Source: Bradyrhizobium sp. WSM471 (GTDB lineage: Bacteria; Pseudomonadota; Alphaproteobacteria; Rhizobiales; Xanthobacteraceae). Taken from it: a stretch of 64,000 nt of DNA. Shown here piece by piece: positions 1,440-47,629 of this stretch (position 1 is the first letter of the stretch; the number at the start of each line of letters is the position of its first letter). The position numbers and the translations under genes were made by a program. Below the pieces are notes generated by a model that saw only the letters and a program-made list of their open reading frames with translations, ran no database searches and had not been told where the DNA came from. The stretch lies in contig NZ_CM001442.1 in the NCBI RefSeq assembly GCF_000244915.1, forward strand, positions 5,518,001 through 5,582,000, read 5' to 3'.

Positions 1440-3719
1440 TTAGCGGAGCAGCTGCAGCACGCTCTGCTGCGACTGGTTGGCCAGCGACAGCGCGGAGACC
1501 GCGATGGACTGGCGGGTCGACAGCGCCTGGCTGTTCGCGGCTTCGACGTTGGTGTCGGCCAAGGTCAGGTTCGACGAACCGGTCTGCAGCACGTTGATCA
1601 GGTTCTTGTTGAAGTCCTGACGCACCTGCACGATCGTGAGGTTTGAACCAAGGCTCGACGCTTCCGAACGCAGCGTGCTCGACGCCGAGTTCAGATTGGT
1701 CAGCACCTTGTTGGTCGCGGCGTTGTCGATGAAATCGACACCGCTGGTCAGCGAGGCCAGGCCGAGACCCTTGGAGTTATAGGTCACGCCGGTGATGCTC
1801 AGGTTCGACTTGCCGGTCTCGTCGAACACCAGCTTGAGCTGGTCGCCGTTCAGCAGGTTGACGCCGTTGAACGAGGAGTCCTGCGAGGTCGAGTCGATCT
1901 GCGCAAGGATGTTGTTGTACTGGCCGACCAGGTTCGAACGCGAGGTCTGGGCAACCGTGTCCTGGACGGGGCTGGAAGCCGTCGAGAACGTCAGCGAGGA
2001 GGTCAGCGTGCCGCCGATCGAACCACCCGCGGCGCTCGAACCGATCGTCGAGGACGCGTAGTCGTTGGTGGTCGAGACCGTCAGCAGGCCATTGGCGTCG
2101 ATCGTCGCCGTCAGGTTGTTGGCCTGAAGCTTCGTGTTGAGCTGATCGAGCGTCTTGACCGTGCCGTTGGTGCCGTCGCCGAAGGTGGCATTGACCGCCG
2201 TGCCGCCGTTGAAGGAGGTGAAGGTCAGCGTCTTGCCCGTGAGGCCGCCGACGCCCGAGGTCCGTGCCGCGGTGAAGGCGCTCGCAGTGCCGGTGTTGCC
2301 GGCGAAGCCAAGCGCGTTCAGCGCATTGCCGGTGCCGGTGATCGACAGATCGGCGTTGACGCCGGTCGAGATCTTGAGCTGACCCGAGGCGTTGATCGAC
2401 GAGTTGGTCTGGCCGGTCGCCGTCGCAAGCGTCGCGGTGCCGTTGGCATTGACCGTCGCGGTCTGCACGCCACTGGCAAGGTCGATCGCCTTGAGCACGT
2501 CGTTAATCGTGCCGGCCTGCAGATAGACCGTCGAGTTGCCGGCGCCGTCGGTGAGGACGTTACCGCTCGCACCATACCCGCTCGGAACGCTCGGAGCACC
2601 GGTCGAGCCCGGGATCGGCGCGTTCTTGAAGGTGATGACGTGACCGTCGACGTTCAGCGTCGAACCGTCGGCGATGGTCGCACCCAGCGAGGCCGCGCTC
2701 GTGGTCCGGTTGACGCTCACGGTGGCATTGCCGCCGCCCACGGCCGTCGTCAAGGTGAGAGCCTTGAGCAGGTCGGCCTTGCCGGTGACGCTCAGATCCG
2801 CACCCGTCGAGCTCTTCAGCGTGACGGCGCCGCCGGCAGCGGTTGAGGCGGTCTGGCCGACGCTGGTGGCGAACGTCGCTGCACCCGCGGTGATGGACAC
2901 CGTCTTCACGCCGCTGGCCAGATCGATTGCGGTCAACAGATCGTTGACGTTCGCAGCCGGGGTGCCCGCGGTGCCGAGATAGACAGTGGTGTTGCCGCTG
3001 CCGTCGGTGACGAGATTGCCGCTGACGCCCGAACCGGACGCAACCGCGGTCGAAGCCGGAGCGGAGCCGCTGCGGAAGGTGATGGTCTTGCCGTTCACGG
3101 TCAGCGTGTCGCCGTCGGCCGGCTGGGCGTTGCCGGACAGGCCGGTTGCGGTGGTGCCGTTGGTCGCGATCAGCGTGATGGTGCCGGTCAGCGCCGTGGT
3201 GCCGTCGCCGGCCGTTGCGCCAGTGCTGGCGAACGAGCCGATGGTGGCGCCGAGGGTCGTGCTGCCGCTTGCCGCCGTGGTGCCGCCGGCCGTGCCGTTA
3301 TACACGACGTTGCTGCTCGCGGTCGCGCTGGCAAAGGAGGTGGTGCCGCGCAGATCGGCCGCCGTCGCACCTGCGATGGTGGTGGAGACGTTGGACTTGG
3401 TGGAGTAGCCGACGGTGGTCTGCAGCGCCTGGTTGGCGATCGACTTCGCAGAGTCGATCAGCTTCTGCAGCGAGGTGATGCCGGTGTTGGCGGCCTGCAG
3501 CACCTGCACGCCGTTGGCGATGCCATCGAGGAGATTGTTGATGTCGCTGGCGCGGTTGTCGAGCGACTGTGCGGTGAAGAAGTTGGTGGGATTGTCCAGG
3601 GCCGAGTTGACGCTCTTGCCGGTCGACAGGCGGCTCTGCGTGGTGGCGAGAAGATCAGCGGTGGACTGGAGGGAGAGCAGGTTCTGACGAACCGACGAGG
3701 AGAGAACAATACCGGACAT
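1440..3719 (-). CDS. fliC: Flagellin, second tandem copy
   Basis: Complete 759-residue flagellin. Residues 1 to about 130 form the conserved N-terminal helical region. About 130 to 590 is a Thr/Ser/Ala/Gly-rich variable surface domain containing two related blocks, each with a D-x-LTVNGKTITF or LNVDGHVITF strand motif, then DGxGNxTVYL, then LTAIDLASGV or LKAIDLASGV. About 600 to 759 is the conserved C-terminal helix, ending QSVLQLLR. It is far longer than most alphaproteobacterial flagellins (300-500 residues), as in the thick flagellum of Bradyrhizobium. It differs from the copy at 4077 at roughly 26 residues. The gene has its own leader and terminator and is probably transcribed alone. Confidence 0.97.
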   Translation of the reverse strand: MSGIVLSSSVRQNLLSLQSTADLLATTQSRLSTGKSVNSALDNPTNFFTAQSLDNRASDINNLLDGIANGVQVLQAANTGITSLQKLIDSAKSIANQALQTTVGYSTKSNVSTTIAGATAADLRGTTSFASATASSNVVYNGTAGGTTAASGSTTLGATIGSFASTGATAGDGTTALTGTITLIATNGTTATGLSGNAQPADGDTLTVNGKTITFRSGSAPASTAVASGSGVSGNLVTDGSGNTTVYLGTAGTPAANVNDLLTAIDLASGVKTVSITAGAATFATSVGQTASTAAGGAVTLKSSTGADLSVTGKADLLKALTLTTAVGGGNATVSVNRTTSAASLGATIADGSTLNVDGHVITFKNAPIPGSTGAPSVPSGYGASGNVLTDGAGNSTVYLQAGTINDVLKAIDLASGVQTATVNANGTATLATATGQTNSSINASGQLKISTGVNADLSITGTGNALNALGFAGNTGTASAFTAARTSGVGGLTGKTLTFTSFNGGTAVNATFGDGTNGTVKTLDQLNTKLQANNLTATIDANGLLTVSTTNDYASSTIGSSAAGGSIGGTLTSSLTFSTASSPVQDTVAQTSRSNLVGQYNNILAQIDSTSQDSSFNGVNLLNGDQLKLVFDETGKSNLSITGVTYNSKGLGLASLTSGVDFIDNAATNKVLTNLNSASSTLRSEASSLGSNLTIVQVRQDFNKNLINVLQTGSSNLTLADTNVEAANSQALSTRQSIAVSALSLANQSQQSVLQLLR

Positions 3720-4076: not shown

Positions 4077-6356
4077 TTAGCGGAGCAGCTGCAGCACGCT
4101 CTGCTGCGACTGGTTGGCCAGCGACAGCGCGGAGACCGCGATGGACTGGCGGGTCGACAGCGCCTGGCTGTTGGCCGCTTCGGTGTTGGTGTCGGCCAGG
4201 GTCAGGTTGGACGAACCGGTCTGCAGCACGTTGATCAGGCTCTTGTTGAAGTCCTGACGCACCTGCACCACCGAGAGGTTCGAGCCGAGGCTCGACGCTT
4301 CCGAACGCAGCGTGCTCGACGCGGCATTCAGGTTCGACAGCACCTTGTTGGTCGCGGAGTTGTCGATGAAGTCGACACCGCTGGTCAGCGCAGCAAGGCC
4401 GAGACCCTTGGAGTTGTAGGTCACGCCCGTGATGCTCAGGTTCGACTTGCCGGTCTCGTCGAACACCAGCTTGAGCTGGTCGCCGTTCAGCAGGTTGACG
4501 CCGTTGAACGAGGAGTCCTGCGAAGTCGTGTCGATCTGGTTCAGGATGTTGTTGTACTGAGACACCAGGTTCGAACGCGAGGTCTGGGCAACCGTGTCCT
4601 GGACGGGGCTGGAAGCCGTCGAGAACGTCAGCGAGGAGGTCAGCGTGCCGCCGATCGAACCACCCGCGGCGCTCGAACCGATCGTCGAGGACGCGTAGTC
4701 GTTGGTGGTCGAAACCGTCAGCAGGCCGTTGGCGTCGATCGTCGCCGTCAGGTTGTTGGCCTGAAGCTTCGTGTTGAGCTGATCGAGCGTCTTGACCGTG
4801 CCGTTGGTGCCGTCGCCGAAGGTGACGTTGACCGCCGTGCCGCCGTTGAAGGAGGAGAAGGTCAATGTCTTGCCGCTGATGCCGCCGACGCCCGAGGTAC
4901 GCGCCGCAGTGAAGGCGCTCGAGGTGCCGGTATTGCCGGCGAAGCCGAGCGCATTCAACGCATTGCCGGTGCCGGTGATCGACAGATCGGCGTTGACGCC
5001 GGTCGAGATCTTGAGCTGACCCGAGGCGTTGATCGACGAGTTGGTCTGGCCGGTCGCCGTCGCAAGCGTCGCGGTGCCGTTGGCATTGACCGTCGCGGTC
5101 TGCACGCCGGTGGCAAGGTCGATCGCCTTGAGCACGTCGTTGACCGTGCCGGCCTGCAGATAGACCGTCGAGTTGCCGGCGCCGTCGGTGAGGACGTTAC
5201 CGCTCGCACCATACCCGCTCGGAACGCTCGGAGCACCGGTCGAGCCCGGGATCGGCGCGTTCTTGAAGGTGATGACGTGACCGTCGACGTTCAGCGTCGA
5301 ACCGTCGGCGATGGTCGCACCTAGCGAGGCCGCGCTCGTGGTCCGGTTGACGCTCACGGTGGCGTTGCCGCCGCCCACGGCCGTCGTCAGGGCGAGAGCC
5401 TTGAGCAGGTCGGCCTTGCCGGTGACGCTCAGATCCGCACCCGTCGAGCTCTTCAGCGTGACGGCGCCGCCGGCAGCGGTTGAGGCGGTCTGGCCGACGC
5501 TGGTGGCGAACGTCGCTGCACCCGCGGTGATGGACACCGTCTTCACGCCGCTGGCCAGATCGATTGCGGTCAACAGATCGTTGACGTTCGCAGCCGGGGT
5601 GCCCGCGGTGCCGAGATAGACAGTGGTGTTGCCGCTGCCGTCGGTGACGAGATTGCCGCTGACGCCCGAACCGGACGCAACCGCGGTCGAAGCCGGAGCG
5701 GAGCCGCTGCGGAAGGTGATGGTCTTGCCGTTCACGGTCAGCGTGTCGCCGTCGGCCGGCTGGGCGTTGCCGGACAGGCCGGTTGCGGTGGTGCCGTTGG
5801 TCGCGATCAGCGTGATGGTGCCGGTCAGCGCCGTGGTGCCGTCGCCGGCCGTTGCGCCAGTGCTGGCGAACGAGCCGATGGTGGCGCCGAGGGTCGTGCT
5901 GCCGCTCGCCGCCGTGGTGCCGCCGGCTGTGCCGCTATACACAACGTTGCTGCTCGCGGTCGCGCTGGCGAAGGAGGTGGTGCCGCGCAGATCGGCCGCC
6001 GTCGCACCCGCGATCGAGGCGGAGACGTTGGACTTGGTGGAGTAGCCGACGGTGGTCTGCAGCGCCTGGTTGGCGATCGACTTCGCAGAGTCGATCAGCT
6101 TCTGCAGCGAAGTGATGCCGGTGTTGGCAGCCTGCAGCACCTGCACGCCGTTGGCGATACCGTCGAGCAGATTGTTGATGTCGCTGGCGCGGTTGTCGAG
6201 CGACTGTGCGGTGAAGAAGTTGGTGGGATTGTCCAGGGCCGAGTTGACGCTCTTGCCGGTCGACAGACGGTTCTGCGTGGTGGCGAGAAGATCAGCGGTG
6301 GACTGGAGGGAGAGCAGGTTCTGACGAACCGACGAGGAGAGAACGATACCGGACAT
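4077..6356 (-). CDS. fliC: Flagellin, first tandem copy
   Basis: Complete 759-residue flagellin with the same architecture as the copy at 1440: conserved helical ends around a long variable domain built from two related blocks. Most differences from that copy cluster in the C-terminal third (for example NILNQIDTTSQ against NILAQIDSTSQ, and SVVQVRQDFNKS against TIVQVRQDFNKN). The first 500 residues are almost the same. This suggests recent duplication or continuing gene conversion. It is read leftward and diverges from flbT across a 319-base intergenic region. Confidence 0.97.
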   Translation of the reverse strand: MSGIVLSSSVRQNLLSLQSTADLLATTQNRLSTGKSVNSALDNPTNFFTAQSLDNRASDINNLLDGIANGVQVLQAANTGITSLQKLIDSAKSIANQALQTTVGYSTKSNVSASIAGATAADLRGTTSFASATASSNVVYSGTAGGTTAASGSTTLGATIGSFASTGATAGDGTTALTGTITLIATNGTTATGLSGNAQPADGDTLTVNGKTITFRSGSAPASTAVASGSGVSGNLVTDGSGNTTVYLGTAGTPAANVNDLLTAIDLASGVKTVSITAGAATFATSVGQTASTAAGGAVTLKSSTGADLSVTGKADLLKALALTTAVGGGNATVSVNRTTSAASLGATIADGSTLNVDGHVITFKNAPIPGSTGAPSVPSGYGASGNVLTDGAGNSTVYLQAGTVNDVLKAIDLATGVQTATVNANGTATLATATGQTNSSINASGQLKISTGVNADLSITGTGNALNALGFAGNTGTSSAFTAARTSGVGGISGKTLTFSSFNGGTAVNVTFGDGTNGTVKTLDQLNTKLQANNLTATIDANGLLTVSTTNDYASSTIGSSAAGGSIGGTLTSSLTFSTASSPVQDTVAQTSRSNLVSQYNNILNQIDTTSQDSSFNGVNLLNGDQLKLVFDETGKSNLSITGVTYNSKGLGLAALTSGVDFIDNSATNKVLSNLNAASSTLRSEASSLGSNLSVVQVRQDFNKSLINVLQTGSSNLTLADTNTEAANSQALSTRQSIAVSALSLANQSQQSVLQLLR

Positions 6357-6675
6357 TGGGTGTTACCTTTCTGGTAAACGACGCTTACTGTTACGCGTCT
6401 GCATGGATCGAGTGACCCAGCGACCGGCGGACCGTGGGGCGGAGTCCTCTAACGAAACATGAAATGAAATTGGCGCTTTTGCTGAGTCGGCGCGCGATTC
6501 GGCCCAGTCGCACACTCGCGACGCCACGCAGCCAGGCGATTTCAGCCTTGATATGATTGAGCTTTTCCGCGGCATCGGCCGGGATTTACAACTCGTTAAC
6601 TAGTCTTGATGGAGTATTGCGCCCTGATCCGCCGCAATACACGCTCGGTTACGAAAGCGTTGATGGAGAACAGGC
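6357..6675. other. Divergent intergenic region between flagellin and flbT
   Basis: These 319 bases separate the leftward flagellin from rightward flbT and must carry both promoters. No flaF-sized reading frame fits here, although flaF commonly neighbours flbT in alphaproteobacteria. No other gene is seen. Confidence 0.65.
6363..6377 (-). promoter_or_regulatory. Conserved flagellin 5' leader, perfect TTACC/GGTAA inverted repeat
   Basis: On the minus strand TTACCAGAAAGGTAA lies six bases before the ATG at 6356. Here the arms form a perfect 5-bp inverted repeat around AGAAA. The other two flagellins keep the sequence with one or two arm mismatches. It overlaps the ribosome binding site. Confidence 0.6.
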
Positions 6676-7113
6676 ATGGCCCTCAAGGTCGAGCTCAGAC
6701 CGCACGAACGCATCATCGTCGGTAACTGCGTAATAACCAACACCGACCAGCGCGCCCGCCTTCTGATCGACGGCGACAACGTGCCGATCCTGCGCGAACG
6801 CGACATCCTCACGCCGGAGACCGCCGATACGCCTGCCAAGCTCGTCTATCTGGCGGTCCAGCTCATGTACATCTCGCCGGATCCGCAGACCCAGCACGGC
6901 ACCTATTTCAACCTGGTGCGCGACATCGTCACCGCGGTGCCGAGCTCGTGGCCGATCATCGAAGGCATCAACAACAACATCCTCAACGGCGACCTCTATC
7001 GCGCGCTGAAGGATGCCCGCAAGCTGATCGCCTATGAAGAGAAATTGCGGGGCCAGTTCGAGGCCACGCATCCCAAGACGGAAGCGGACCAGGACGTCAG
7101 CACCGCCGCCTGA
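6676..7113 (+). CDS. flbT: Flagellar biosynthesis regulator FlbT
   Basis: 145 residues, the normal length for FlbT. It shows family features such as LKPHERIIVGN-like LRPHERIIVGN near the start, the segment INRARLLI-like QRARLLIDGD, and YLAVQLMYISPD. In Caulobacter FlbT acts on the 5' leader of flagellin mRNA and lowers its stability; in Brucella it is reported as an activator. The ATG follows GGAGAACAGGC. It stands divergent from the flagellins, which carry a shared leader that could be its target. Its 3' end faces the four-gene modification cluster across a common hairpin. flaF is not adjacent. Confidence 0.93.
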   Translation: MALKVELRPHERIIVGNCVITNTDQRARLLIDGDNVPILRERDILTPETADTPAKLVYLAVQLMYISPDPQTQHGTYFNLVRDIVTAVPSSWPIIEGINNNILNGDLYRALKDARKLIAYEEKLRGQFEATHPKTEADQDVSTAA

Positions 7114-7182
7114 TCCCACGCGTTCGCGTGCCCACGCCGCGCGAACGACCAGGCCGCACGACGACCAAGCCTCATAAACGGC

Positions 7183-7211
7183 AACGGCCCCGGATCGCCT
7201 CCGGGGCCGTT
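7183..7211. terminator. Bidirectional hairpin between flbT and the decarboxylase gene
   Basis: A perfect 11-bp stem (AACGGCCCCGG with its complement) closes a 7-base loop between two convergent genes. The arms start with AA and end with TT, and T residues follow on the plus strand, so it can serve both directions. It closes the flgE-to-decarboxylase gene string. Confidence 0.85.
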
Positions 7212-7234
7212 GTCGTTTCGGGCCTGCGTCAATA

Positions 7235-8731
7235 CTACTGCGCCGCGAGCGGCGGCGCCTCGACCTCGATCACTCCCCCGCTCCGCCGTCCGCCGAATTC
7301 CAGCACGGCCGCGATCAGCGCATCGATGTCAGTCTCGTCGGTGCGATGATTGACGATCGCGGCGCGGATCGCAAACCTGCCGTCCAGCGTGGTGCTCGAC
7401 GGCGCCGCTACGCCGGACTCCTGGATGTCCGCGACGATCTCGCGATTGACCTCATCCGCGGCGCGGTAACGGAAGCAGACGATATTGAGATTGACCGGTG
7501 CCAGCAATTCAAGCCGCTGCTCGGCAAGAACGCGAGTCTCCAGATATTTCGCCAGCGCACAGCTTCGCGCGATCACCGCACCGAGCCGATTTGTGCCGAA
7601 CGTCTTCAGCGTGAACCATGTCTTCAGCGCACGGAAGCCGCGCGACAGATCGGGGCCGAGATCGCAGGGCCAGACCGCGCCCGCCGCAAGCCCCCTCGCC
7701 TCGCGACGCAGATAGGCCGCGGGCTGCGCAAAAGCCTGCCGATGCTGCTCGCCGTCGCGCACCAGCAGGAAGCCGGCGTCATAAGGCACCTGTCCCCATT
7801 TGTGGAAGTCGAGCGCAATGGAATCCGCAAGCTCGATGCCTCCGAGCAGCGGCGCGAGTTCGGGCGACAGGATCGCGAGCGCACCGAAGGCGCCGTCGAC
7901 GTGAAACCAGATTCCCTCCTCGCGGCACAGCTCCGCGATCGCCTTGAGATCGTCGATCGCACCGATGTCGACCGTACCAGCGGATGCGACGACCAGGAAC
8001 GGCTTGAAGCCGACCTCGCGATCGATCGCGATCTGCGCACGCAGCGCGGCAACGTCGATGCGATGATCGGCATCGACGCCGATCTTGCGCAGCGCATCGC
8101 TGCCGAGCCCGGCGATGTCCATCGCCCTCGAGACGCAGCCATGCGCGGCCTGCGATGTATATGCGGTGAGAAGCGCACCGTCATTGCCGATGCCGTACTG
8201 CCGCGCCAGCGTGCCGAGCGTACTCGTGCGTGCCACCAGCACCGCCATCAGATTCGCCATCGACGTGCCCGTGACGAAGATGCCGCTCGCGCTCTCCGGG
8301 AAGGCGAACAGGCGGCGCATCCAGTCGATGACCTGCCGCTCGACCTCGATCGGCATGTGGTCGCGGCCGCCGAGATTGGCGTTGAGGCCTGCCGCGAGCA
8401 TTTCCGCGACCATGCCAACCGCGGTACCGCCGCCATGTACCCAGCCCATGAAAGCGGGATGGACGTTGCCGGTCGCATAGGGCGCGACATGTTCGGTGAA
8501 GTCGCGATAGACGTCGGCGAGATCGCTCGCCTCGCGCGGCACGTCGGCCTTGAATGCCGCGCGAACGCCGTCGGGGATCGGCTGCCACACTGGACGCGCG
8601 CGAACGTTGGCGATCCCGTCGATGGTCTCGTCAAGCATGCGATGGGCAAGCGCGCGAAACTCGCTCCAGTCCTGCGGATCGAGCGAAGTCTGCGTGACGG
8701 ACCTTTGCGTATTGCGGATGATCTCGTTCAT
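7235..8731 (-). CDS. Group II PLP-dependent decarboxylase in the flagellar operon
   Basis: 498 residues of the aromatic-amino-acid/diaminobutyrate/glutamate decarboxylase superfamily. The expected motifs are present in order: HPAFMGWVHGGG near residue 85, the SGIFVTGTSMANLMAV phosphate-binding stretch, VDGAFGALA, and DFHKWGQVPYDAG, whose Lys should form the Schiff base with PLP. The usual motif is DAHKWL; here it is DFHKWG, a sign of a divergent subfamily. The substrate cannot be told from sequence; an amino acid or amino-acyl group is expected. The ATG overlaps the stop of the ATP-grasp gene by four bases (ATGA), so the two are translationally coupled. It is the last gene of the flgE-K-L string. 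Confidence 0.88.
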   Translation of the reverse strand: MNEIIRNTQRSVTQTSLDPQDWSEFRALAHRMLDETIDGIANVRARPVWQPIPDGVRAAFKADVPREASDLADVYRDFTEHVAPYATGNVHPAFMGWVHGGGTAVGMVAEMLAAGLNANLGGRDHMPIEVERQVIDWMRRLFAFPESASGIFVTGTSMANLMAVLVARTSTLGTLARQYGIGNDGALLTAYTSQAAHGCVSRAMDIAGLGSDALRKIGVDADHRIDVAALRAQIAIDREVGFKPFLVVASAGTVDIGAIDDLKAIAELCREEGIWFHVDGAFGALAILSPELAPLLGGIELADSIALDFHKWGQVPYDAGFLLVRDGEQHRQAFAQPAAYLRREARGLAAGAVWPCDLGPDLSRGFRALKTWFTLKTFGTNRLGAVIARSCALAKYLETRVLAEQRLELLAPVNLNIVCFRYRAADEVNREIVADIQESGVAAPSSTTLDGRFAIRAAIVNHRTDETDIDALIAAVLEFGGRRSGGVIEVEAPPLAAQ

Positions 8732-9981
8732 GCTGCACTCTCCTCGCCCGCTCGCGCATGCCGCGACAGCATCGCCGTAAACGCCGCGAAGATCTTGCGC
8801 ATCTGCGGCGGCTTGTACGGAAACACGGCCGGCGGATCCATGTTGTGCACGACGGCGGTGTTGTCGGCCTCGAAGACCAGCAGCTCGCGGTTCTGGTTCT
8901 CGGCGCAATCGACGATGAAGTAATCGAGGCCGACGCGCCTGCTCATTTCGTCCAGCGCGATTTTGTGGCGCGCTGCGAACGCATGGTCGAAGTCGAGCAT
9001 GAAGACGGCTTCCTCGGCCCGCTTCTCCTCGCTGAACGCCATGAAGGCGTTGAGATACCAGATGTCCCAGCGATCGGCGATCGCCATATGGCAGGCATAG
9101 GGTTTGCCGTCGACCATGGCGAGACGATATTTGCGGTAGAGCCCGTCGGGACTGACATAATCTACGAAACGCGCGACGAAAAAGTCGTGTTCGTGCCGCT
9201 CGGCAAGATAGGCAGCGAGCGCCTCCGCATCGTCGAGCTTGGCGAGCCCGACGCCGGCATGCGTGCCGCGCGGCCGCACGATCATCGGAAAACGCAGTTC
9301 GCCCGTGATCTCCTCGCAAACGATCTTGCCTTGCGAAAGCTCCGACAATTGCGCGCGCGTCGTGGGGGCGGTCACGGGAATGTCGAGACCGGGCACGTCC
9401 GCCAGCAACCGATACAGCTTGTCGCGATCGAGATTGCCGATGAGATCGGGACGATTGAGCAGCGGCCTCGGCCAATGCGGCGCGGCCTTCTCGATCAGCG
9501 CGAGTGCCTCCCGGCACTCCTCGGAATCCGATGCGATCACGATGGCGACGTCGTGCTCGGGCAGAGTCTCCGGCAGGCCGATGCCCTTGACCACGTAGAG
9601 CGTCAACAGCTCGATGTCGGAGTCTTCAAGCAGGAAATCGATCGGCGTGTTGCCGCCCATGTCGATATCGGCGGCGAGCGCGAGCACGCGCAGCCGGGGT
9701 TTTGCAGCAGCGCAAGGCGTACGAAACAATTGGTGGAAGGAGAGCACTTCGGTCTGGATCACCAGCCCGGCCTCCTTCTCGCCGAGAAGCTGGGCAATCA
9801 GCGAGAGATCGAGGCCTTCCCCGGCCTCCGCCGTCCCCTCCTCGATCCGCGCCAGCAGCCGCTCGCGCAACGGATGCAGGTCGCCGCCCTCGAAGGCGCG
9901 GCGCGTCAACTGCGCAAAGCCGATGCGGTCGGCATGGTTCGGCGCGGTCACGCCGCTCTGCGCGGAAACTGGATGTTGCAT
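8728..9981 (-). CDS. ATP-grasp ligase (RimK/glutathione-synthetase-like fold)
   Basis: 417 residues. The N-terminal third (to about 190) has a Rossmann-like region with MGGNTPIDFLLEDSD. The ATP-grasp part follows: ELRFPMIVRPRGTHAG supplies the ATP-binding Arg in place of the usual Lys, FVARFVDYVSPDGLYRKYRL lies in the middle, and LVFEADNTAVVHN carries the metal-binding Glu and Asn. Such enzymes join a carboxylate to an amine through an acyl phosphate. The start at 9981 was chosen because it sits one base after the upstream stop (TGAGATG); a start further upstream would overlap that gene. The partner enzymes, two PLP proteins and a glycosyltransferase, suggest ligation of an amino acid or amine to a carrier or sugar. 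Confidence 0.85.
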   Translation of the reverse strand: MQHPVSAQSGVTAPNHADRIGFAQLTRRAFEGGDLHPLRERLLARIEEGTAEAGEGLDLSLIAQLLGEKEAGLVIQTEVLSFHQLFRTPCAAAKPRLRVLALAADIDMGGNTPIDFLLEDSDIELLTLYVVKGIGLPETLPEHDVAIVIASDSEECREALALIEKAAPHWPRPLLNRPDLIGNLDRDKLYRLLADVPGLDIPVTAPTTRAQLSELSQGKIVCEEITGELRFPMIVRPRGTHAGVGLAKLDDAEALAAYLAERHEHDFFVARFVDYVSPDGLYRKYRLAMVDGKPYACHMAIADRWDIWYLNAFMAFSEEKRAEEAVFMLDFDHAFAARHKIALDEMSRRVGLDYFIVDCAENQNRELLVFEADNTAVVHNMDPPAVFPYKPPQMRKIFAAFTAMLSRHARAGEESAA

Positions 9982-9982
9982 C

Positions 9983-11611
9983 TCACACCTCGAACGCGGA
10001 CTTTGCCGGCACGGCCGCGACCGCGCCACGATCAAGCAGCAGCTCGATCTTCACCAGCACATGGGCGATGCGATCGAGAACGTGTTGCACATTGCGCTCG
10101 GCCTGCATTGCATCCGGCGACCACGCCTCGGTCACCAATCGTGCGCCGACGCAGAGGCGCAACACCGCCTGCGGCGCGCCGTCCTGCCGCTCCAGTCGGA
10201 CCGGCTGCCCGACGAGACAGCGCTGGGCGGCCACTTGCCGATCCGCCGCGCTGCCGCTGATCTCCTCGGCCATGTCGCGCGCCAGCGCCCGATGCACGGC
10301 GCTGGTCTCGGCGATCGAGACCGGCTTGCCGTCGCGCAGCAGCGTGAACGGAAAGATCGTGGCTTGCGCGAATTCCTCGTCGTCCGCGCCGGACTTCTCG
10401 ATCGCGGTTGGAACGGCACGAAGCGACGGCGACAACGCGATCATGCTGTCGATGCCGGCTGCAAGCTCGGCCAGCGCCCTGGCGCGGAAAGCCCCCGGCA
10501 CGGCGTAGTAGCTGCCGATCTCGGCCAGCGCGGCTTCCCAGCGCAGCCATTGACCGAAATTCGGCCGGCGCTCGAACCGCGAGCGCAGTGTCGTCCACGC
10601 CATCGGCCAGTCGCAGCGACCGGCATAGTCGAAGATGCCAGGCGCGATCCCGCCAATCCGGTCGATCGATCGCGACAGGCCTTTCGGCAGCAGCAGCGCA
10701 CCGCTGAAGGCGGGTCCGCCGAAGAATTTCGAGCCGGTGATCAGCACCATGTAACCGCGATCGAGATAGGCGCGCAGCCGCCGGCGGCCGAGCCGCGCCT
10801 GACAGGCATCGACGACAATTTGAACCTTGCGCGGCCAGCGCCGCGCGATCTCGTCGAGACACGCCTCGCTCGGCGCACGCCAACCGAGTTTTGACGAATC
10901 CATGATCTGCAACAAAACGCGCCGGCCTTGCGCGAGGCTGGTCTCGACCGCATGCAGCACCGCGGCATCGGCATTGGTGCGCATCGCTATGCCGGCCGCC
11001 ATATCGATCAGCGGCACCGCAATGCTGTCGCCGGCAAGCCCCGTTACCGCGCCGTCCTTGCGCACGGCAACGCCGCCTGCCGTCATCGTGCTGAAATGGT
11101 GGCCGCGTGCGGTATGCGGCGTGCCGCTTCCGGTCTGGTCGGCGCCGACCACGATCGTCACCGGCGCCGCACCGAGCACCGCGCGCGCCACGAACAGGGC
11201 GTGAAGCTGGGAGTCCGTGCCGGACGGCGAGAACACGACGTCGATGCGCGACGAGAGCGCAAGGTGGCCGCGCAGTTCCTCGCGCATGTCCTCGCAGCGG
11301 GCGTCGAAGGCGATTTCGACCTCGTCGAACAGGCACTTGTGCATCAGCTCTTCGCGCGCCAGCGCGGCGCGGTCGTAAGCCATCTGCGAGATCGTCGAGG
11401 CGGTCGCGGAGGCGAAATTCCAGAGCTCCGGCTCCGGCGAAGCCGCGCAGCCATAGCTGTTGACACGGTCGTTCGGATCGAGCGTCAGCCGCGGATCTCC
11501 GCCGGAGGTGAGCAGCGTATCCAGCGGTGTGAACAGATCGCGCAGGCGATAGCGCGAGCCGCCGTCGGACGCGCGCTCGCTGGCTGACAGACGGGATGCG
11601 CCGGCGCTCAT
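9983..11611 (-). CDS. Atypical PLP-dependent (fold type I) enzyme of unknown reaction
   Basis: 542 residues. The pattern is that of aspartate-aminotransferase-fold enzymes: VFSPSGTDSQLHALF (cofactor phosphate loop), VVDACQARLG (Asp for the pyridine nitrogen), then ITGSKFFGGPAFSGALL, where the Lys in GSKFFGG is the likely Schiff-base residue. Before these come NSYGCAASPEPELWNFASATAS and HKCLFDEVE. The arrangement recalls cysteine desulfurases and decarboxylase-like proteins, but I cannot place it in a named subfamily. The last 100 residues look like a small C-terminal domain. The start at 11611 leaves a 10-base gap to the glycosyltransferase stop. It is probably co-transcribed with its neighbours. 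Confidence 0.82.
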   Translation of the reverse strand: MSAGASRLSASERASDGGSRYRLRDLFTPLDTLLTSGGDPRLTLDPNDRVNSYGCAASPEPELWNFASATASTISQMAYDRAALAREELMHKCLFDEVEIAFDARCEDMREELRGHLALSSRIDVVFSPSGTDSQLHALFVARAVLGAAPVTIVVGADQTGSGTPHTARGHHFSTMTAGGVAVRKDGAVTGLAGDSIAVPLIDMAAGIAMRTNADAAVLHAVETSLAQGRRVLLQIMDSSKLGWRAPSEACLDEIARRWPRKVQIVVDACQARLGRRRLRAYLDRGYMVLITGSKFFGGPAFSGALLLPKGLSRSIDRIGGIAPGIFDYAGRCDWPMAWTTLRSRFERRPNFGQWLRWEAALAEIGSYYAVPGAFRARALAELAAGIDSMIALSPSLRAVPTAIEKSGADDEEFAQATIFPFTLLRDGKPVSIAETSAVHRALARDMAEEISGSAADRQVAAQRCLVGQPVRLERQDGAPQAVLRLCVGARLVTEAWSPDAMQAERNVQHVLDRIAHVLVKIELLLDRGAVAAVPAKSAFEV

Positions 11612-11621
11612 CCCGAAACGC

Positions 11622-12404
11622 TCACGCCGCATCGGCCGCCGCCGCGGGCGCCGGTGCGAATTGCGAGGTGATGTCGCCGTGGAACACCGAGGGCCCGACG
11701 TGATCGAGCGAGCTCTCGATGTCGGCCCAGATCTCGCCGCCGATGTCGGTCCAGCGCTTGCAGAAGGCGAAGTCCTCGGACAGATAGGTGCCGGTCGCCG
11801 CATCGATCATGCATTCGAACAAGGCAAACCGGTTCTGGCTCGCCGCCAGCGTATCGTGCGAATGCTCGCGGAAGAATTGCAAGGCCGCGTAGTCCGGATG
11901 GCGGCACATCGCCTCCAGCACGGAGCGCCGGATCATCAGGAAGCCGGTGCCGGCGTAGCGCACGCGGGTGAAGCCGTTCACCACCACGATGCGGTCGGGG
12001 TCCTCGATCTCGAGCACGTAGTCGAGCGATGCGGCCGGCACGTCGGCGCGACCGGACTGGATCGCCCGCGCGGCCTTGTCCCAGTTGATCCGCTTGATCG
12101 GATAGCAGCCGGCGACGACGTCCGCGCCGCACTCGATCAGCCGGAACACCTGCTCCGGCTTGAAGCCGATGTCGGCATCGATGAAGATGAAATGCGTCGC
12201 TTCGGGATCGTCCAGGAACATCGCGGCCAGATTGGCCCGCGCGCGCGTGATCAGCGCATCGCCGTCGCGCAGCAGCACCTTGAGCTCGAGATTGGCCATG
12301 CCGTGCACGGCACGCTGGAGCGCGAAGATCGAGCTCGCATAGATGCTCGTCACCTGCCCGCCGAAACATGGCGTGGCCACCACCAGTTTCATCTTGTCCG
12401 ACAT
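11622..12404 (-). CDS. GT-A type glycosyltransferase in the flagellar operon
   Basis: 260 residues. The start MSDKMKLVVATPCFGG, then DGDALITRARANLAA and HFIFIDADIGFKP with a DAD (DxD) metal-nucleotide motif, point to an inverting or retaining GT-A fold, of the kind seen in GT2-like and Anp1-like proteins. DVVAGCYPIKRINW and YAGTGFLMIRR are also typical of this group. The ATG at 12404 has GGAG eight bases upstream; an upstream TTG at 12425 is less likely. There is no signal peptide or membrane segment, so it should act in the cytoplasm. It lies 70 bases after flgL with no terminator between, so it may modify a flagellar protein or make the sugar part of a modifying group. Confidence 0.85.
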   Translation of the reverse strand: MSDKMKLVVATPCFGGQVTSIYASSIFALQRAVHGMANLELKVLLRDGDALITRARANLAAMFLDDPEATHFIFIDADIGFKPEQVFRLIECGADVVAGCYPIKRINWDKAARAIQSGRADVPAASLDYVLEIEDPDRIVVVNGFTRVRYAGTGFLMIRRSVLEAMCRHPDYAALQFFREHSHDTLAASQNRFALFECMIDAATGTYLSEDFAFCKRWTDIGGEIWADIESSLDHVGPSVFHGDITSQFAPAPAAAADAA

Positions 12405-12474
12405 CGTCAGCTCCGCCCGCTGCAATCCTCACCAAGAGGTAAAGAGGCATGGTTAACGGCGCCTTAACGCCCGC

Positions 12475-14826
12475 TTACAGGAACTTGACGAGCGAGAGCT
12501 GCGCGAGGTTCGAGGTCACCTGGTAGGACGCCTGGAGCGCGTTCTGGAGCGACAGGATCTCGCTCGCGACCTGGTCCGGCGGGGCCGATTCCGCCTGGTC
12601 GATGATGGTCTGGAGCTGCGCCTTGGCCTGGGTCTGGCGCGTGCCCGCGTCCTTCATGGTGTTCTGGGCCATCGCGATGTCGGTCTGGATGTCTTCGATG
12701 CGCTGCTGGCCGGGCTGCTTGGTCAGAGCCTGCGTCACCCGCAGGCTCAGCGCGGCGACCTGCCCGCCCGCATACTGCCCGGTCGGCGAGGTCGAGAACG
12801 TCCCGAACACGGCGACCGCCTGCAGCTCCTTGCGGATGGCGTCCTCGTTCGCCTGCGCGCCATACTGCACCGTGACGGAATCGTCGACCCGGGCCATCGC
12901 GGTGGAGCGCGGCGAACCGGGGCCGTCATTGCCCAGGTACCATTGCACGGTGGTGGCCGAGCCGTTGACCAGCGTCGTCGCCGAGCCGAGGGGCGAAGAG
13001 CCGACGCGCAGCGGAGCCTTTGCCGCCGTGACCGGGGAGGTCGTGAAGCCGAGCGCCGCGAACGCCGTGCTGTTCGAGCTCGTGATGTTGAGGCTCCCGG
13101 GATCGTCCGTGTTGATCGTGATGACGCCGCCATGGATGGTCGACGGCTTCGTGGTGCCGGTGATCTGATCGATCTTGCCAAGGAGAGTTGTGATGTTGTC
13201 GGTAACGTTGATCTGGTTTGGGCCGATGGCGCCCGAGGCGACAAAAGTCAGCGTCTGACCGTTCACCGTGATCGTATCGGGCGCCTGGAACGCCGCTGAG
13301 AGGACTTCCGGGCCGCCCGTGGTCGCAGTGCCGCTCAGCACAGTTGAACCGGTGATCTGAGGCGTCGACGCCGCGCTGCCGCGCGTCACGCTGCTGAGAC
13401 CGAGCGCCGTGGCCGCCGCGCCGCCGGTGACCGCCACGTCGGTGCCGGTGCCGGTCGCGATCTGGATATTGCCGCCGGCGCTCAGAGTCACGTTGGCGGC
13501 GGGGATGCCGGCGGCCGTCGCGATTGCATTCAAGATATCAGACACCTTCGCGGCGCTGCCCGAAGCCAATCCGATCGTGGTATTGCCGCTGGCCGTCGTG
13601 ACAGTGGTGACGGTAGGGTCGAAGGTGATCGTGTGGGCGCCGCTCGCGCCGGTGATGGTCAGGGTGGTACCGGTCGGAGCGTTGGCGAGCGCGGTGAGAA
13701 TGGTCCCGTTGAGATGGGGTGTCGCCGAAGAATCGAGCGACGTGGTCGTAGACGCAATCGCCAATGCGCTGTCCTGCAACGCAACCGAGCCCGTCCCGGT
13801 CGTTGAGGTATAGGAGAGCAGATTGCCGGTGGCCGCCACATTCGCAGTGGCGGATCCCGCCGTGTTGAAGAAATTGTCCCCCGCCGTGACGGCGGATGCC
13901 GCTACCAGCGAGGTGCCGGCAAGCTTCTTGATCGCGGTGTTCAGCGCGGTGTTGAGGTTGGTCGCCGTGTTGTTCGGGTTGACCGGGACGCTTGCATCGA
14001 TCGCAAAGCTGCCGACGGGCGTCGGTGTCGCGGTGGACGCCGTCAGGTCGATCTGCTCGGTCGAGCCATCGGGCAGCGTGAACTGCACGCTGAGCTTGTC
14101 GCCATTGTTCGGATTGACGCCGTTGAGGTCGACCGAGAACGACACCGGCGAGCCGCTCGGGCCGGTGACCGTCGCGCCGGTCAGCGTCGAGGAGACTGCG
14201 GCGATCTTCAGGCCGAATGGCGATGCGGGCGCGTCCTCGGAGACCTTCACCGAGCTCGGCGTCGGCTGTGGGGTCGCCAGCACCAGCCGGCCCATGCCGT
14301 TGGCGCCGAGGTCGGCGGCCTGGCGCTCCGCCATGACGGTCTTGAAGCCCGCCTGCGTCGTGGTGCCGTTGATGATGTCGCCGGCATTCGCGACCGACGG
14401 CGTGTTGAAGGCGGTGCCGGAGAACAGATAGCGGTTGCCGGATTGCGTATTGAGAACGCCGACCATCGAGCCGAATTGCGCAGCTGCGGTGTTCTGCGCG
14501 ACCGTCTGGCCATTGACGTTGAGATCCTGCGCGGTGTTGGCCGAGCCCGTCTGCACCGTGTTGCGGATCGTGGTCAGCGACTGCAACGCGGTATTGGCGA
14601 GGTTGATGCTGACGTTGACGTTGGTCATCGTGTCGGTATAGGCGGCGATGTTGGAGAGCTGCGCGCGCCCGGCGATCGCAAAGCCCTCGTTGGTGCCCAT
14701 CCCGGAATAGTTCTGCGACAGCTTGCCGGTCGAGAGCTGCGTCGACAGGTCGGTGAGCTGCTGGTTGATGTTGCGGATCTGCGAGCCGAGAATCGACGAG
14801 GAATAGTTGATGCTGCTGATCGACAT
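12475..14826 (-). CDS. flgL: Hook-filament junction protein FlgL, greatly enlarged
   Basis: 783 residues against 300-350 in enterobacteria. The N-terminus has the flagellin-like helices (LTDLSTQLSTGKLSQNYSGMGTNEG) and the C-terminus the matching helices (QTDIAMAQNTMKDAGTRQTQAKAQ, split here: AMAQNTMKDAG and LQTIIDQAE). Between them, from about 210 to 640, is a long Ser/Thr/Ala-rich insert with flagellin IN-like motifs such as DTITVNGQTLTF and QINVTDNITTLLGKID. A large part of this insert resembles the insert of FlgE next door. It lies in the order flgE-flgK-flgL with a 21-base gap to flgK. FlgL joins FlgK to the filament. Confidence 0.95.
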   Translation of the reverse strand: MSISSINYSSSILGSQIRNINQQLTDLSTQLSTGKLSQNYSGMGTNEGFAIAGRAQLSNIAAYTDTMTNVNVSINLANTALQSLTTIRNTVQTGSANTAQDLNVNGQTVAQNTAAAQFGSMVGVLNTQSGNRYLFSGTAFNTPSVANAGDIINGTTTQAGFKTVMAERQAADLGANGMGRLVLATPQPTPSSVKVSEDAPASPFGLKIAAVSSTLTGATVTGPSGSPVSFSVDLNGVNPNNGDKLSVQFTLPDGSTEQIDLTASTATPTPVGSFAIDASVPVNPNNTATNLNTALNTAIKKLAGTSLVAASAVTAGDNFFNTAGSATANVAATGNLLSYTSTTGTGSVALQDSALAIASTTTSLDSSATPHLNGTILTALANAPTGTTLTITGASGAHTITFDPTVTTVTTASGNTTIGLASGSAAKVSDILNAIATAAGIPAANVTLSAGGNIQIATGTGTDVAVTGGAAATALGLSSVTRGSAASTPQITGSTVLSGTATTGGPEVLSAAFQAPDTITVNGQTLTFVASGAIGPNQINVTDNITTLLGKIDQITGTTKPSTIHGGVITINTDDPGSLNITSSNSTAFAALGFTTSPVTAAKAPLRVGSSPLGSATTLVNGSATTVQWYLGNDGPGSPRSTAMARVDDSVTVQYGAQANEDAIRKELQAVAVFGTFSTSPTGQYAGGQVAALSLRVTQALTKQPGQQRIEDIQTDIAMAQNTMKDAGTRQTQAKAQLQTIIDQAESAPPDQVASEILSLQNALQASYQVTSNLAQLSLVKFL

Positions 14827-14847
14827 GTTTCAGAGCCCTGTTACTTG

Positions 14848-16731
14848 TTACACTTGAGCCTGGAGCAGCGTATTCATCATGCTCTGCACCACCGACATGA
14901 CATGGGCGTTGGCGGCATAGGCATTCTGGAGCTGGATCAGGTTCGACATCTCCGAGTCCAGGTTGACGCTGGCGGTCGAGTTGAACTTGGCCTGCAGCGT
15001 CGAGACCACGACGCTCTGGCCCTGCTGCAGCTGGGTCGCCTGGGTCGCGGCATTGCCCTGAACGCTCAGGAACTGCTGGAGGTAGTTCGAGACGCTGCCG
15101 GTGAAGGGCTGGCTGGCCGAGCCCAGACCGGATTGCGGCGAATAGGAGAACACCGCCGAGGTGAGCTGCGAATAGAGATAGTCCGAGCGCGTGGTGTCGC
15201 CGGTGGGCGTCACCGGCGAGGTGTTGTAGATCGACAGCCTGGTCGGGTCGGTGGCGAGCTGTGTGTTCACGGCGATGCGGCCGGCAAGGCCGGTCATCTG
15301 CGAACCCGATGCCGTGATCGCGCCGGTGTAGAGCGCCTGCCCACCATCGGTGAACAGCGGCAGTTGCGGATTGCCCGAGGTCAGCGACGAGATCGTCTTG
15401 GTGATCGAGGCCGAATTGACCTTGGCGAGGCCGCTGTTGTCGTCGGTCACCCGCAATGTGGTGGCCGTCGCCGGCGACGGCGCGGCGGCGAAAGACAGAT
15501 GCGAGCCGGAAAGCGCGGTGTTGAGCGCCGAGGCGATCGCGCCCATGCCGCCGGAGAAGTTCACCCCGATCTGCATCGGATTGGCGTTGGTGGGGTTCTG
15601 GAGCGGGAGCGCCGCCGGATCGGTCACGTTGACGAGCGTGACCTGTCGCTTCGTGTTGGTGGTCGTGTCGGTGTAGGTGAAGTTGACGCTGTTGCCCGGC
15701 GCCGCTCCCGCAAGGTCGAGATCGAAGCCGGCCGGCGGGCCGGTGACCGTGCTGCCGGCCGTGGTCTTGTCCGACAACGCGCTCGACATCGTCGCGGCGA
15801 ACTGGTCGATCTGGTTCTGCGCCTGCACCAGCGTCTGGTCGCGCAGCTTCAGATCGGCCGCGATCTGGCCCGAAGACACAACGTTGTTGGCGATGACGTC
15901 GACCGACGATCCGTTCGGGAGCTTGATGTTGAACGCGCCGACGCCGGATTTGGCCGGATCGATGTTGTAGAGCGAGGTCGCCGACAGCGCGCCGGCGGAG
16001 GCAAAGGTGAATTGCGAGGCCAGCCCGGCGCCGACCAGCTGGATGCCGGTGGTGGTGTAGATGTTGGCCTGATTGGACCCGTCGGTGGTGACGTGGACGT
16101 CGACATATTTCGACAGCGTGTTGATGGCCTGGTCGCGCTGGTCCATCAGCGTCGCGGCCGAGGGGTCGTGTTCCGAAAGGCCCTGGAGTCTGGAGTTGAT
16201 GTCGGCGACCTGCTGCATCGCCGCGTTGGCCTGCTGCGCCGAGGTGCTGAGATCCTGCTCGACGTTGGAGCGCAGCGACTGGATGCCTTTGGTGGTGAGG
16301 TTGAGCTGCTGCGCCAGCGTCTGCGCAGCGCCGAGCGCAACGGTTTGCGCCGACGACGAGCCCGCATTGGTCGAGAGCGCCTGCAGCGCCGTGGTGAAAC
16401 TGTTCAGCGCGGTTTCGAGCGTACCGCTGTTGCCGGGCGTGCCATAGACATTCTGAAGCTGCTTCAGGATGTTCGCCATCTGGTCGGCGTAGCCGCTGCC
16501 GCCGGTCTCGGTGCGCAGCTGTTTCTGTACATAGGTGTCGAGCTCGCGGCTGACGCCGGTCGTCGTCACCGTCGAGCCGAAGTCGCCGGTGGTGACCTCG
16601 ATCTGGTTCGGCGTCTGGACGACGTAACCCGGCGTCTGCGAGTTGGCGACGTTCGAGGAAACGATCGAGAGCGCAGCCTGATTGGCACGCAGACCGCTCA
16701 TCGCACTGGCGAGGGCTGAACTCAAACCCAT
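14848..16731 (-). CDS. flgK: Hook-associated protein 1, FlgK
   Basis: 627 residues, close to the usual FlgK length. The N-terminus MGLSSALASAMSGL followed by RANQAALSIVSSNVANSQT and the segment TPGYVVQT are the conserved flagellar rod/hook motif. The C-terminus LDSEMSNLIQLQNAYAANA and VVQSMMNTLLQ is typical of HAP1. FlgK forms the first junction ring between hook and filament. It is 35 bases downstream of flgE and 21 bases upstream of flgL, consistent with one transcript. Confidence 0.96.
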   Translation of the reverse strand: MGLSSALASAMSGLRANQAALSIVSSNVANSQTPGYVVQTPNQIEVTTGDFGSTVTTTGVSRELDTYVQKQLRTETGGSGYADQMANILKQLQNVYGTPGNSGTLETALNSFTTALQALSTNAGSSSAQTVALGAAQTLAQQLNLTTKGIQSLRSNVEQDLSTSAQQANAAMQQVADINSRLQGLSEHDPSAATLMDQRDQAINTLSKYVDVHVTTDGSNQANIYTTTGIQLVGAGLASQFTFASAGALSATSLYNIDPAKSGVGAFNIKLPNGSSVDVIANNVVSSGQIAADLKLRDQTLVQAQNQIDQFAATMSSALSDKTTAGSTVTGPPAGFDLDLAGAAPGNSVNFTYTDTTTNTKRQVTLVNVTDPAALPLQNPTNANPMQIGVNFSGGMGAIASALNTALSGSHLSFAAAPSPATATTLRVTDDNSGLAKVNSASITKTISSLTSGNPQLPLFTDGGQALYTGAITASGSQMTGLAGRIAVNTQLATDPTRLSIYNTSPVTPTGDTTRSDYLYSQLTSAVFSYSPQSGLGSASQPFTGSVSNYLQQFLSVQGNAATQATQLQQGQSVVVSTLQAKFNSTASVNLDSEMSNLIQLQNAYAANAHVMSVVQSMMNTLLQAQV

Positions 16732-16766
16732 GTTGGCTTGCCGCCTCTGGTTACGTCACGCACCAA

Positions 16767-19019: not shown

Positions 19020-19132
19020 AACTTTGTCTCCAGATCCGATCTCGGCGGCCGGTCGACCATGGCCGCAGTCGGAGGAGACTGTCGCAAGGGCTATGCCAAT
19101 GCGGGTACTTTCACGAAATCAATGACTTAATG

Positions 19133-19159
19133 AAAAAGCCCCGGTCTGACGACCGGGGC
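19133..19159 (-). terminator. Rho-independent terminator after msrB
   Basis: On the minus strand GCCCCGGTC and its complement form a 9-bp stem with a GTCA loop, followed by TTTTT. It separates msrB from flgE. Confidence 0.9.
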
Positions 19160-19197
19160 ACAATTGCCGGGACCGGCAACAATTGCCGGGACGAAAC

Positions 19198-19710
19198 CTA
19201 GGTTGCGGACGCCGCCGCGGGATGGAAGACCAGCCCGAAACCGTCGATGCAGTAGCGCAATCCGGTCGGCTTCGGACCGTCGTCGAAGACGTGGCCGAGA
19301 TGGCCGCCGCAGCGCCGGCAATGCACCTCGGTGCGCAGCATGCCGTAGGTGCGGTCCTCGGTCTTGCCGACATTGCCCTCGATCGGCTGGTAGAAGCTCG
19401 GCCAGCCCGTGCCGCTCTCGAATTTGGTGTCGGAGGCGAACAGCGGCAGGTCGCAGCCGGCGCAGGCGAAGATGCCCTTGCGGTGCTCCTTGAGCAGCGG
19501 GCTGGAGCCCGGCCGCTCGGTGCCCTCCTTGCGCAGGATCTCATATTGCTGCGGCGTGAGCTGGGCACGCCATTCGGCGTCCGTCTTCTCGATCTCGAAT
19601 TTCTGCGCGGCTTTCTCTCCAGCCTCCGCGGGCGATGCTCTGAGCCAGCGGAAGGCCGCAAGGCCAAACAGGCCGGCGACAGTCGTCAACAGGATGCGGC
19701 GGTCAAACAT
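19198..19710 (-). CDS. msrB: Peptide methionine-(R)-S-oxide reductase MsrB, exported
   Basis: 170 residues. It reduces methionine-R-sulfoxide in proteins. Two CxxC zinc pairs are visible (FACAGC and HCRRC), with GTGWPSFYQP and the reductase core GGHLGHVFDDGP, then RYCIDG, whose Cys is catalytic. The N-terminus MFDRRILLTTVAGLFGLAAF with an Ala-x-Ala-like site after ASPAEA suggests export through Tat or Sec, so repair in the periplasm is likely. The ATG at 19710 has GGAG seven bases upstream and is preferred to the ATG at 19722. Confidence 0.94.
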   Translation of the reverse strand: MFDRRILLTTVAGLFGLAAFRWLRASPAEAGEKAAQKFEIEKTDAEWRAQLTPQQYEILRKEGTERPGSSPLLKEHRKGIFACAGCDLPLFASDTKFESGTGWPSFYQPIEGNVGKTEDRTYGMLRTEVHCRRCGGHLGHVFDDGPKPTGLRYCIDGFGLVFHPAAASAT

Positions 19711-19795
19711 CTCATTCTCCATGCGGGAGCGTCTACGCCCTGAGATACGGGCTCTAACCGTCGACGTTACACGTCCGGGCGGAGTTTTTCTCACC

Positions 19796-47233: not shown

Positions 47234-47629
47234 GGCGCAGGCCCCGGCATCGCGCGATGGCCGCCGGTCCGGCGGTCAAGTTCCCTCTACCCAAGCACGG
47301 AAATGGTTAACCAAATGTTCCGGCCGTTTTGCGCAAATCTGCCTGTTTATTGACGAAAAGTTGCCGCAATCCGGCGAGTCCGGTGGAGAATTGCATTTAT
47401 TGCTAAGGCCTTACGGCGCGATCCTGTTAACGATGATTAAGAATGTCTTAATCGCGGGCATTTCATTCGCGACGCTCTGCCAATAGGATGTTGGAGAAAT
47501 TGGCGGACAAGCCGTCCGGGTGGGGATGGCTCGGAGATCCGCGCAAGCGGCATGATCCGGACTGTGGGCTTGCGTAGCGCGCAGAGCTCGCGGGGGGACG
47601 CGTACAAGTAACGAGGGCTCGGACTGAAC
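47234..47629. other. Divergent promoter region between the HPt gene and the growth-pole-ring-like gene
   Basis: 396 bases without a gene. The left half (47280-47470) is clearly richer in A and T than the coding DNA, as expected for promoters. No specific elements were identified. Confidence 0.6.

Follow-up and report, generated by a model that had tools for sequence, protein, structure and literature searches.

A decarboxylase and ATP-grasp module between flgL and flbT of Bradyrhizobium as a possible CtrA-timed modification cassette of the thick flagellum

Why should four genes for biosynthetic enzymes stand between the hook-junction gene flgL and flbT in Bradyrhizobium sp. WSM471? We analyzed a window of 64,000 nucleotides from this strain (contig NZ_CM001442.1, positions 5,518,001 to 5,582,000), in which genes for a glycosyltransferase (GT), a pyridoxal phosphate enzyme (PLP), an ATP-grasp ligase (ATPg) and a decarboxylase (DEC) are read leftward, in that order, from 12404 to 7235. 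Judged from sequence, the module could be a cassette, timed by CtrA, that modifies the thick flagellum, a reading to which we assign a probability of about one half. A tie between the module and the CtrA and flagellar programme is supported by a CtrA-type box of a kind common to many copies of the flagellin gene fliC, by co-occurrence with one class of flgL, and by linkage to flagellin genes in two further loci (L093 and L055; L and G numbers denote loci and genomes). A role confined to the flagellum is not supported.

The box is a perfect TTAA-N7-TTAA at 12453-12467, a pattern that we take to be the CtrA site; it is called CtrA-type from this match of letters and lies between flgL and GT, some 63 bases upstream of the start of GT. 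Two such sites occur in the 64 kb against a mean of 0.02 in 100 shuffles, the other being at 47437-47451. Among 107 module loci with flgL in reach, the gap contains an exact box in 85, a box with one mismatch in 16 and none in 6, and no box at up to one mismatch is found in any of 12 module-free flgL-flbT gaps (the window itself is included as L001, and several genomes that stand in two collections are counted twice). The 45 loci without flgL in reach, a mixture of stand-alone PLP-ATPg-DEC trios, lone PLP or ATPg homologues and cut-off or misplaced module loci, yield 1 exact box, 22 with one mismatch and 22 without any; exact boxes are present in some cut-off or misplaced module loci (L014, L052, L127, L148). 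Across 113 scanned loci, 54 of 121 exact boxes stand 62-231 bases before a called fliC, and a fliC of 762 amino acids (aa), adjacent to the window on its left, is preceded by two.

Because a perfect box stands in the flgL-GT gap, the module is probably transcribed from a promoter of its own, rather than being just the last part of the flgE-K-L operon. An earlier, sequence-only reading had placed it at the end of that operon; the position after flgL stands, while the idea of a simple operon tail is weakened by the box, which that reading had missed. Its description of the layout agrees with the coordinates: the first gene starts 70 bases after flgL, the following gaps are 10 bases (GT-PLP, with the PLP start at 11611) and 1 base (PLP-ATPg), and ATPg and DEC overlap by 4 bases. 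As it had stated, no terminator is listed in the 70-base gap, where the fold is ordinary (z -0.93); a sigma-70 consensus scan of 6500-20000 gave no site. The bidirectional hairpin that it had described beside flbT, at about 7176-7218 between the DEC gene and flbT, is a strong fold on both strands (minus, -49.2 kcal/mol, z -7.7; plus, -46.3 kcal/mol, z -4.6), though a T run is lacking and it is not among the terminators listed by the consensus scan.

Within Bradyrhizobium, a sample of 146 genomes contains PLP in 86, GT in 109, ATPg in 95, DEC (at E 1e-60) in 97 and FlgL in 145; the PLP count excludes 34-35% matches in G163, G186 and G227 and a 45-residue remnant in G157. ATPg and DEC co-occur in 95 of 95 genomes; of the two surplus DEC matches, that in G167 is a paralogue at 34% and that in G182 an incomplete copy from a genome of 80% completeness. 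Thirteen of the 95 pair genomes have no PLP at the locus and three have no close GT at all. In the genus the ATPg-DEC pair is constant, while PLP and GT, though frequent, are dispensable. The counts include damaged copies: G222, G254 and G259 carry a split PLP and G224 a split GT, and in G161, G177 and G276 GT is reduced to a fragment. Together with the PLP remnant of G157, these amount to repeated loss of the outer enzymes. When FlgL is divided by E-value into two classes, the pair is present in 93 of 94 class I genomes (the exception is G182) and in none of 48 of class II, with four genomes of fragmentary or no FlgL match set aside (two with the pair and two without).

Fifteen loci lacking the module were read (L078-L092; 16 genomes), and in 12 of them flbT follows flgL after 68-133 bases. 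No FlbT is called in L083, and other genes follow flgL in L087 and L091; the one directly after flgL in L087 (8777-10675) is a different gene of 632 aa. A FlgK tree built from 34 loci with the module and 15 without it shows a single change of module state, with support 100. A tree of the neighbor MsrB has three such changes, only one of which is forced by well-supported branches. Median identity to the window for module-free versus divergent module loci is 52 versus 66% in FlgK, 47 versus 58% in FlgL and 83 versus 82% in MsrB. The distribution may have arisen through exchange of the flgEKL block or through vertical descent.

The composition of the module varies between loci of the genus. Six variants (L034-L038 and L046) have an extra gene inside the module, which combines tetratricopeptide repeats (TPR) with Glyco_transf_9 according to Pfam in L034, L035 and L037 and looks alike by eye, to judge from its start, in the other three; L034-L038 also have a second ATPg gene. 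PLP is absent in L034, L035, L038, L045, L046, L048, L049 and L053 and a remnant in L052; L044 and L045 lack GT, of which L053 retains a stub. The module in the window contains no TPR plus GT-B transferase, and the best match to the variant TPR-GT elsewhere in its own genome reaches 31% over the GT part only, other matches being TPR stretches.

For a wider view, 80 named loci were kept from at least 530 confirmed ones, with flanks of up to 10 kb a side and often less. Among the matches listed for these, 53 read flgL-GT-PLP-ATPg-DEC-flbT-fliC, 15 are bare trios, and the remaining 12 are arranged otherwise or cut off, among them L184 with nothing but PLP. A set of 385 alphaproteobacterial genomes includes 6 with PLP and 21 with a member of the ATPg family, two of each being Bradyrhizobium. 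The flagellar linkage of L093 (G347) takes the interleaved order PLP-fliC-flbT-ATPg-DEC, and that of L055 the order fliC array-PLP-ATPg-flbT. Of six further loci checked for the box, L055 has it exactly and L179 and L184 with one mismatch; L182, L183 and L185 have none. The core of the set is DEC and ATPg, usually with PLP, and GT joins in Bradyrhizobium. Fusions of PLP with ATPg (L054/L116 and L182) and of DEC with ATPg (L095) tie the enzymes to each other.

Several observations count against a flagellar cassette. The 15 bare trios, from 11 Rhodopseudomonas and 4 alphaproteobacterial or Rhodospirillales metagenome-assembled genomes, have no FlgL, FlbT or FliC in the fetched flanks, and GT is missing in 10 of the 11 trio-bearing Rhodopseudomonas genomes, the eleventh having a GT without a flagellar neighbor. 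In L094, some 8 kb containing sugar-nucleotide genes (by eye) separate PLP from a FliC match, and ATPg and DEC are not found there. The neighborhoods of L095 and L097-L099 are non-flagellar; in the latter three the ATPg-DEC genes adjoin TonB-type or cell-division genes, by eye. Incomplete sets occur as well (L055 without DEC, L062 and L063 without ATPg, L096 with PLP alone and L100 with ATPg alone), and since these loci and L094 hold only parts, the set is not constant outside Bradyrhizobium. The box is absent from six module loci with flgL in reach (L034, L035, L038, L041, L045, L119) and from L093, L182, L183 and L185. Neither of the two fliC genes in the window has an exact box, and a one-mismatch site at 6585-6599, between fliC and flbT, is 229 bases before one of them and nearer to flbT. 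The whole genome has 46 exact boxes against 30 for a reversed control pattern, and therefore single box sites prove little. Genes behind the 40 of these 46 sites that were viewed, the module's own site among them, include the 762 aa fliC (two sites), a sigma-54 activator, Amidase_3, TadE, an HTH_8 protein, a sigma-70 factor, a DUF2336 protein and a gene that resembles flgB by eye (no Pfam match at 1e-4); many sites have no clear gene behind them. At 74.5 kDa, the predicted FliC is already heavier than the 65-68 kDa published for B. diazoefficiens flagellin in the available part of the source, so no added mass is visible, with the proviso that species and gels differ.

An alternative is that the module makes a soluble or cell-surface small molecule (a signal, or a pilus, lipopolysaccharide or other envelope group) within the CtrA regulon and shares with its flagellar neighbors nothing except timing. 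We regard this as a real possibility, somewhat less probable than a flagellar cassette. It draws on the Rhodopseudomonas-type trios, in 13 of 13 of which a box with at most one mismatch precedes PLP by 98-128 bases (with an approximate start in L118), compared with 2 of 216 upstream regions of other genes and 29 of 5043 random stretches in the same loci. The spacer letters of these boxes vary between species; the species are related, so the 13 loci are not independent. The sequence-only reading had held that genes scattered among relatives and unrelated to flagella would speak against its proposal. For the Rhodopseudomonas trio half of this has come true: its flanks, as far as fetched, contain no flagellar gene, but the three genes stand together rather than scattered and have a box within one mismatch. 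The small-molecule explanation also gains from the PLP-DEC pair of L062 beside Tad-pilus-like genes, from L066 (G165 contig 3), where an open frame of 3300 aa resembling a nonribosomal peptide synthetase is immediately followed by a PLP homologue of 33% identity (names by eye in both), and from the separation of GT from the trio outside Bradyrhizobium. It fits less well with the division between FlgL classes, with the flagellin linkage of L093 and L055, and with the TPR plus GT9 partner of the variant loci, which has the make-up of the flagellin transferase FlmG. PLP-DEC genes also lie a few kb from XoxF-type methanol dehydrogenase-like genes, by eye, in L062 and L095, which belong to two different families.

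A metabolic operon could instead have landed between flgL and flbT and been carried along without shared function. The unrelated neighborhoods of L097-L099 would suit such an origin, and tracking of the flgEKL block might be simple physical linkage; we nevertheless consider it unlikely, as the box is kept in the flgL-GT gap and absent from the module-free gaps, a box whose spacer letters have changed stands at a similar position in the stand-alone copies, and L093 is again linked to flagellar genes. Least probable of all is that ATPg acts on protein directly, coupling the amine from DEC in an amide bond to a carboxylate, at a side chain or the terminus, of a flagellar protein. ATPg and DEC are the invariant pair of the genus, and distant ATPg relatives (L071 at 9183-12648 and L072; L101, L102 and L104 by similarity) are fused to TPR, a domain type that FlmG uses for flagellin binding; yet in profile searches the ATPg of the window matches neither TPR nor any protein-ligase family above cut-off, and GT is usually present. 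L071 has two TPR-ATP-grasp genes back to back, and in L072 one is near transglutaminase-like genes, by eye.

If the module is a modification cassette, the enzyme families suggest amine-then-amide chemistry. DEC would convert an amino acid into an amine, ATPg would use ATP to join that amine to a carboxylate as an amide, PLP might tailor the sugar or the acid, and GT (in some relatives the TPR plus GT9 enzyme as well) would place the product on flagellin or on FlgE, FlgK or FlgL before export. A bolder and doubtful extension is amine-tagging of an exported organelle, in which a cell-cycle-timed DEC would supply the amine, ATPg would attach it through an amide bond, either straight to carboxylates on proteins of the hook junction or filament or to a sugar acid that these carry, and TPR partners would guide the reaction in relatives. 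The sequence-only reading had assigned the module an amine- or amino-acid-based role on the filament or another late flagellar product; the tie to the flagellar programme and the constancy of the DEC-ATPg pair in Bradyrhizobium favor it, an exclusively flagellar role does not follow.

DEC (8731-7235, minus strand, 498 aa) belongs to the group II PLP decarboxylases (PF00282, 226.9 bits against a gathering cut-off of 27), like the DOPA, lysine (DfoJ) and diaminobutyrate enzymes in family and in its conserved Lys, His and Asp. K311, H197 and D279 are invariant in a 12-row alignment and presumably have the roles of the conserved residues of that group. A specific assignment as L-2,4-diaminobutyrate decarboxylase (NF052646) was rejected at 189.5 bits against a curated cut-off of 900. 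The DEC family apparently has no tyrosine at what we take to be its usual place in the catalytic loop; the same appears true of tryptophan decarboxylase 4obu in the alignment, and the active-site letters therefore give no conclusion on substrate. ATPg (9981-8728, minus strand, 417 aa) is an ATP-grasp-like carboxylate-amine ligase by alignment and by weak D-Ala-D-Ala ligase matches, its only Pfam match being Dala_Dala_lig_C at 17.2 bits, below the cut-off of 24. PLP (11632-9983, minus strand) has fold type I and the Schiff-base lysine and falls on the class V aminotransferase/NifS side, with no Pfam family matched; the upstream ATG at 11632 gives 549 aa and an 11-base overlap with GT, and the start at 11611 gives 542 aa. 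GT (12404-11622, minus strand, 260 aa) is a probable GT-A-like glycosyltransferase. It matches no Pfam family; its motif D76-A-D78 is invariant in 27 alignment rows, and its structural model (predicted local distance difference test 63.9) matches LH3 best in Foldseek (TMq 0.45), followed by A197 of Sulfolobus turreted icosahedral virus and GtrB. A search for anti-phage defence systems with PADLOC was negative, three proteins having no match and DEC weak partial SspA/DndA matches only.

Coupling to long flagellins, proposed earlier as a check, does not hold: L080 and L081 have flagellins of 752 and 749 aa without the module, and L046 has ATPg, DEC and GT with flagellins of 510 aa. Because presence tracks the flgE-K-L class and not flagellin length, flagellin is no better a target than the hook-junction proteins. 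In the window, flgL of the module-associated class (12475-14826), flgK (14848-16731) and flgE (16767-19019) lie upstream on the minus strand; beyond the module are flbT (6676-7113, plus) and two fliC genes of 759 aa (4077-6356 and 1440-3719, both minus). The predicted FlgE and FlgL have a common insert domain, 58% identical over 277 columns, with a weaker likeness to FliC. The closest PLP homologues (95-96% identity) are in records named B. canariense, and since two others, P0093 (84%) and P0096, bear the USDA110-style name 'Bll5850 protein', the USDA110 counterpart is probably Bll5850. The thick subpolar flagellum of USDA110 uses FliC1-4, bll5843-bll5846, according to the available text of PMC4823718, and the module therefore adjoins thick-flagellum filament genes.

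If the cassette reading is true, amine-ligation chemistry would be added to flagellar modification in a major legume-symbiont genus and would be tied to the cell-cycle regulator CtrA, and the rare stand-alone trio of Rhodopseudomonas would be linked to what is apparently the same regulon. In the searched literature, outside of which most subscription journals fall, we found no description of a DEC/ATPg/PLP set with a CtrA-type box, no mention of bll5848, bll5849, bll5850, bll5851, bll5852 or blr5847, and no title on a Bradyrhizobium CtrA regulon.

A close regulatory parallel is Caulobacter, where CtrA drives flmG, flmA and neuB, so that flagellin-modification genes have CtrA-dependent promoters much as a CtrA-type box precedes the module here (PMC7591256, available text). 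FlmG is a TPR plus GT-B transferase, with a counterpart in the TPR plus GT9 genes of the variant loci. The Caulobacter system differs in using pseudaminic acid and in having a TPR-GT that the module of the window lacks, and the available text does not mention a DEC/ATPg pair. The relevant matches of a literature search on flagellin and ATP-grasp are studies of Clostridioides difficile and Shewanella. In the available text on C. difficile type B, GT genes adjoin an ATP-grasp gene, much as ATPg and GT stand beside flagellin genes here, and in its mutant the flagellin glycan is without its terminal sulfonated peptidylamido-sugar (PMC5207246). That locus, from another phylum, differs in its Pfam 13535 ATP-grasp and its FemAB-like, ornithine cyclodeaminase-like and FdtB-like genes, with no DEC mentioned in that text. 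Loss of the ATP-grasp gene SO_3265 (sfmE) from the flagellin-modification operon sfmABCDE of Shewanella oneidensis shifts flagellin mass; the operon resembles ours in including such a gene and differs in its NeuB, thiamine pyrophosphate, reductase and methyltransferase partners and its predicted FliA promoter (PMC3765264, available text). The ATPg of the window shows no match to Pfam 13535/ATP-grasp_4, the ATP-grasp type of both precedents. The earlier remark that no described system with this gene set in a hook operon is known holds for the set within the literature searched, but these two precedents establish the general kind: ATP-grasp enzymes in flagellin-modification loci are already known, and the DEC/ATPg/PLP set is a new variant.

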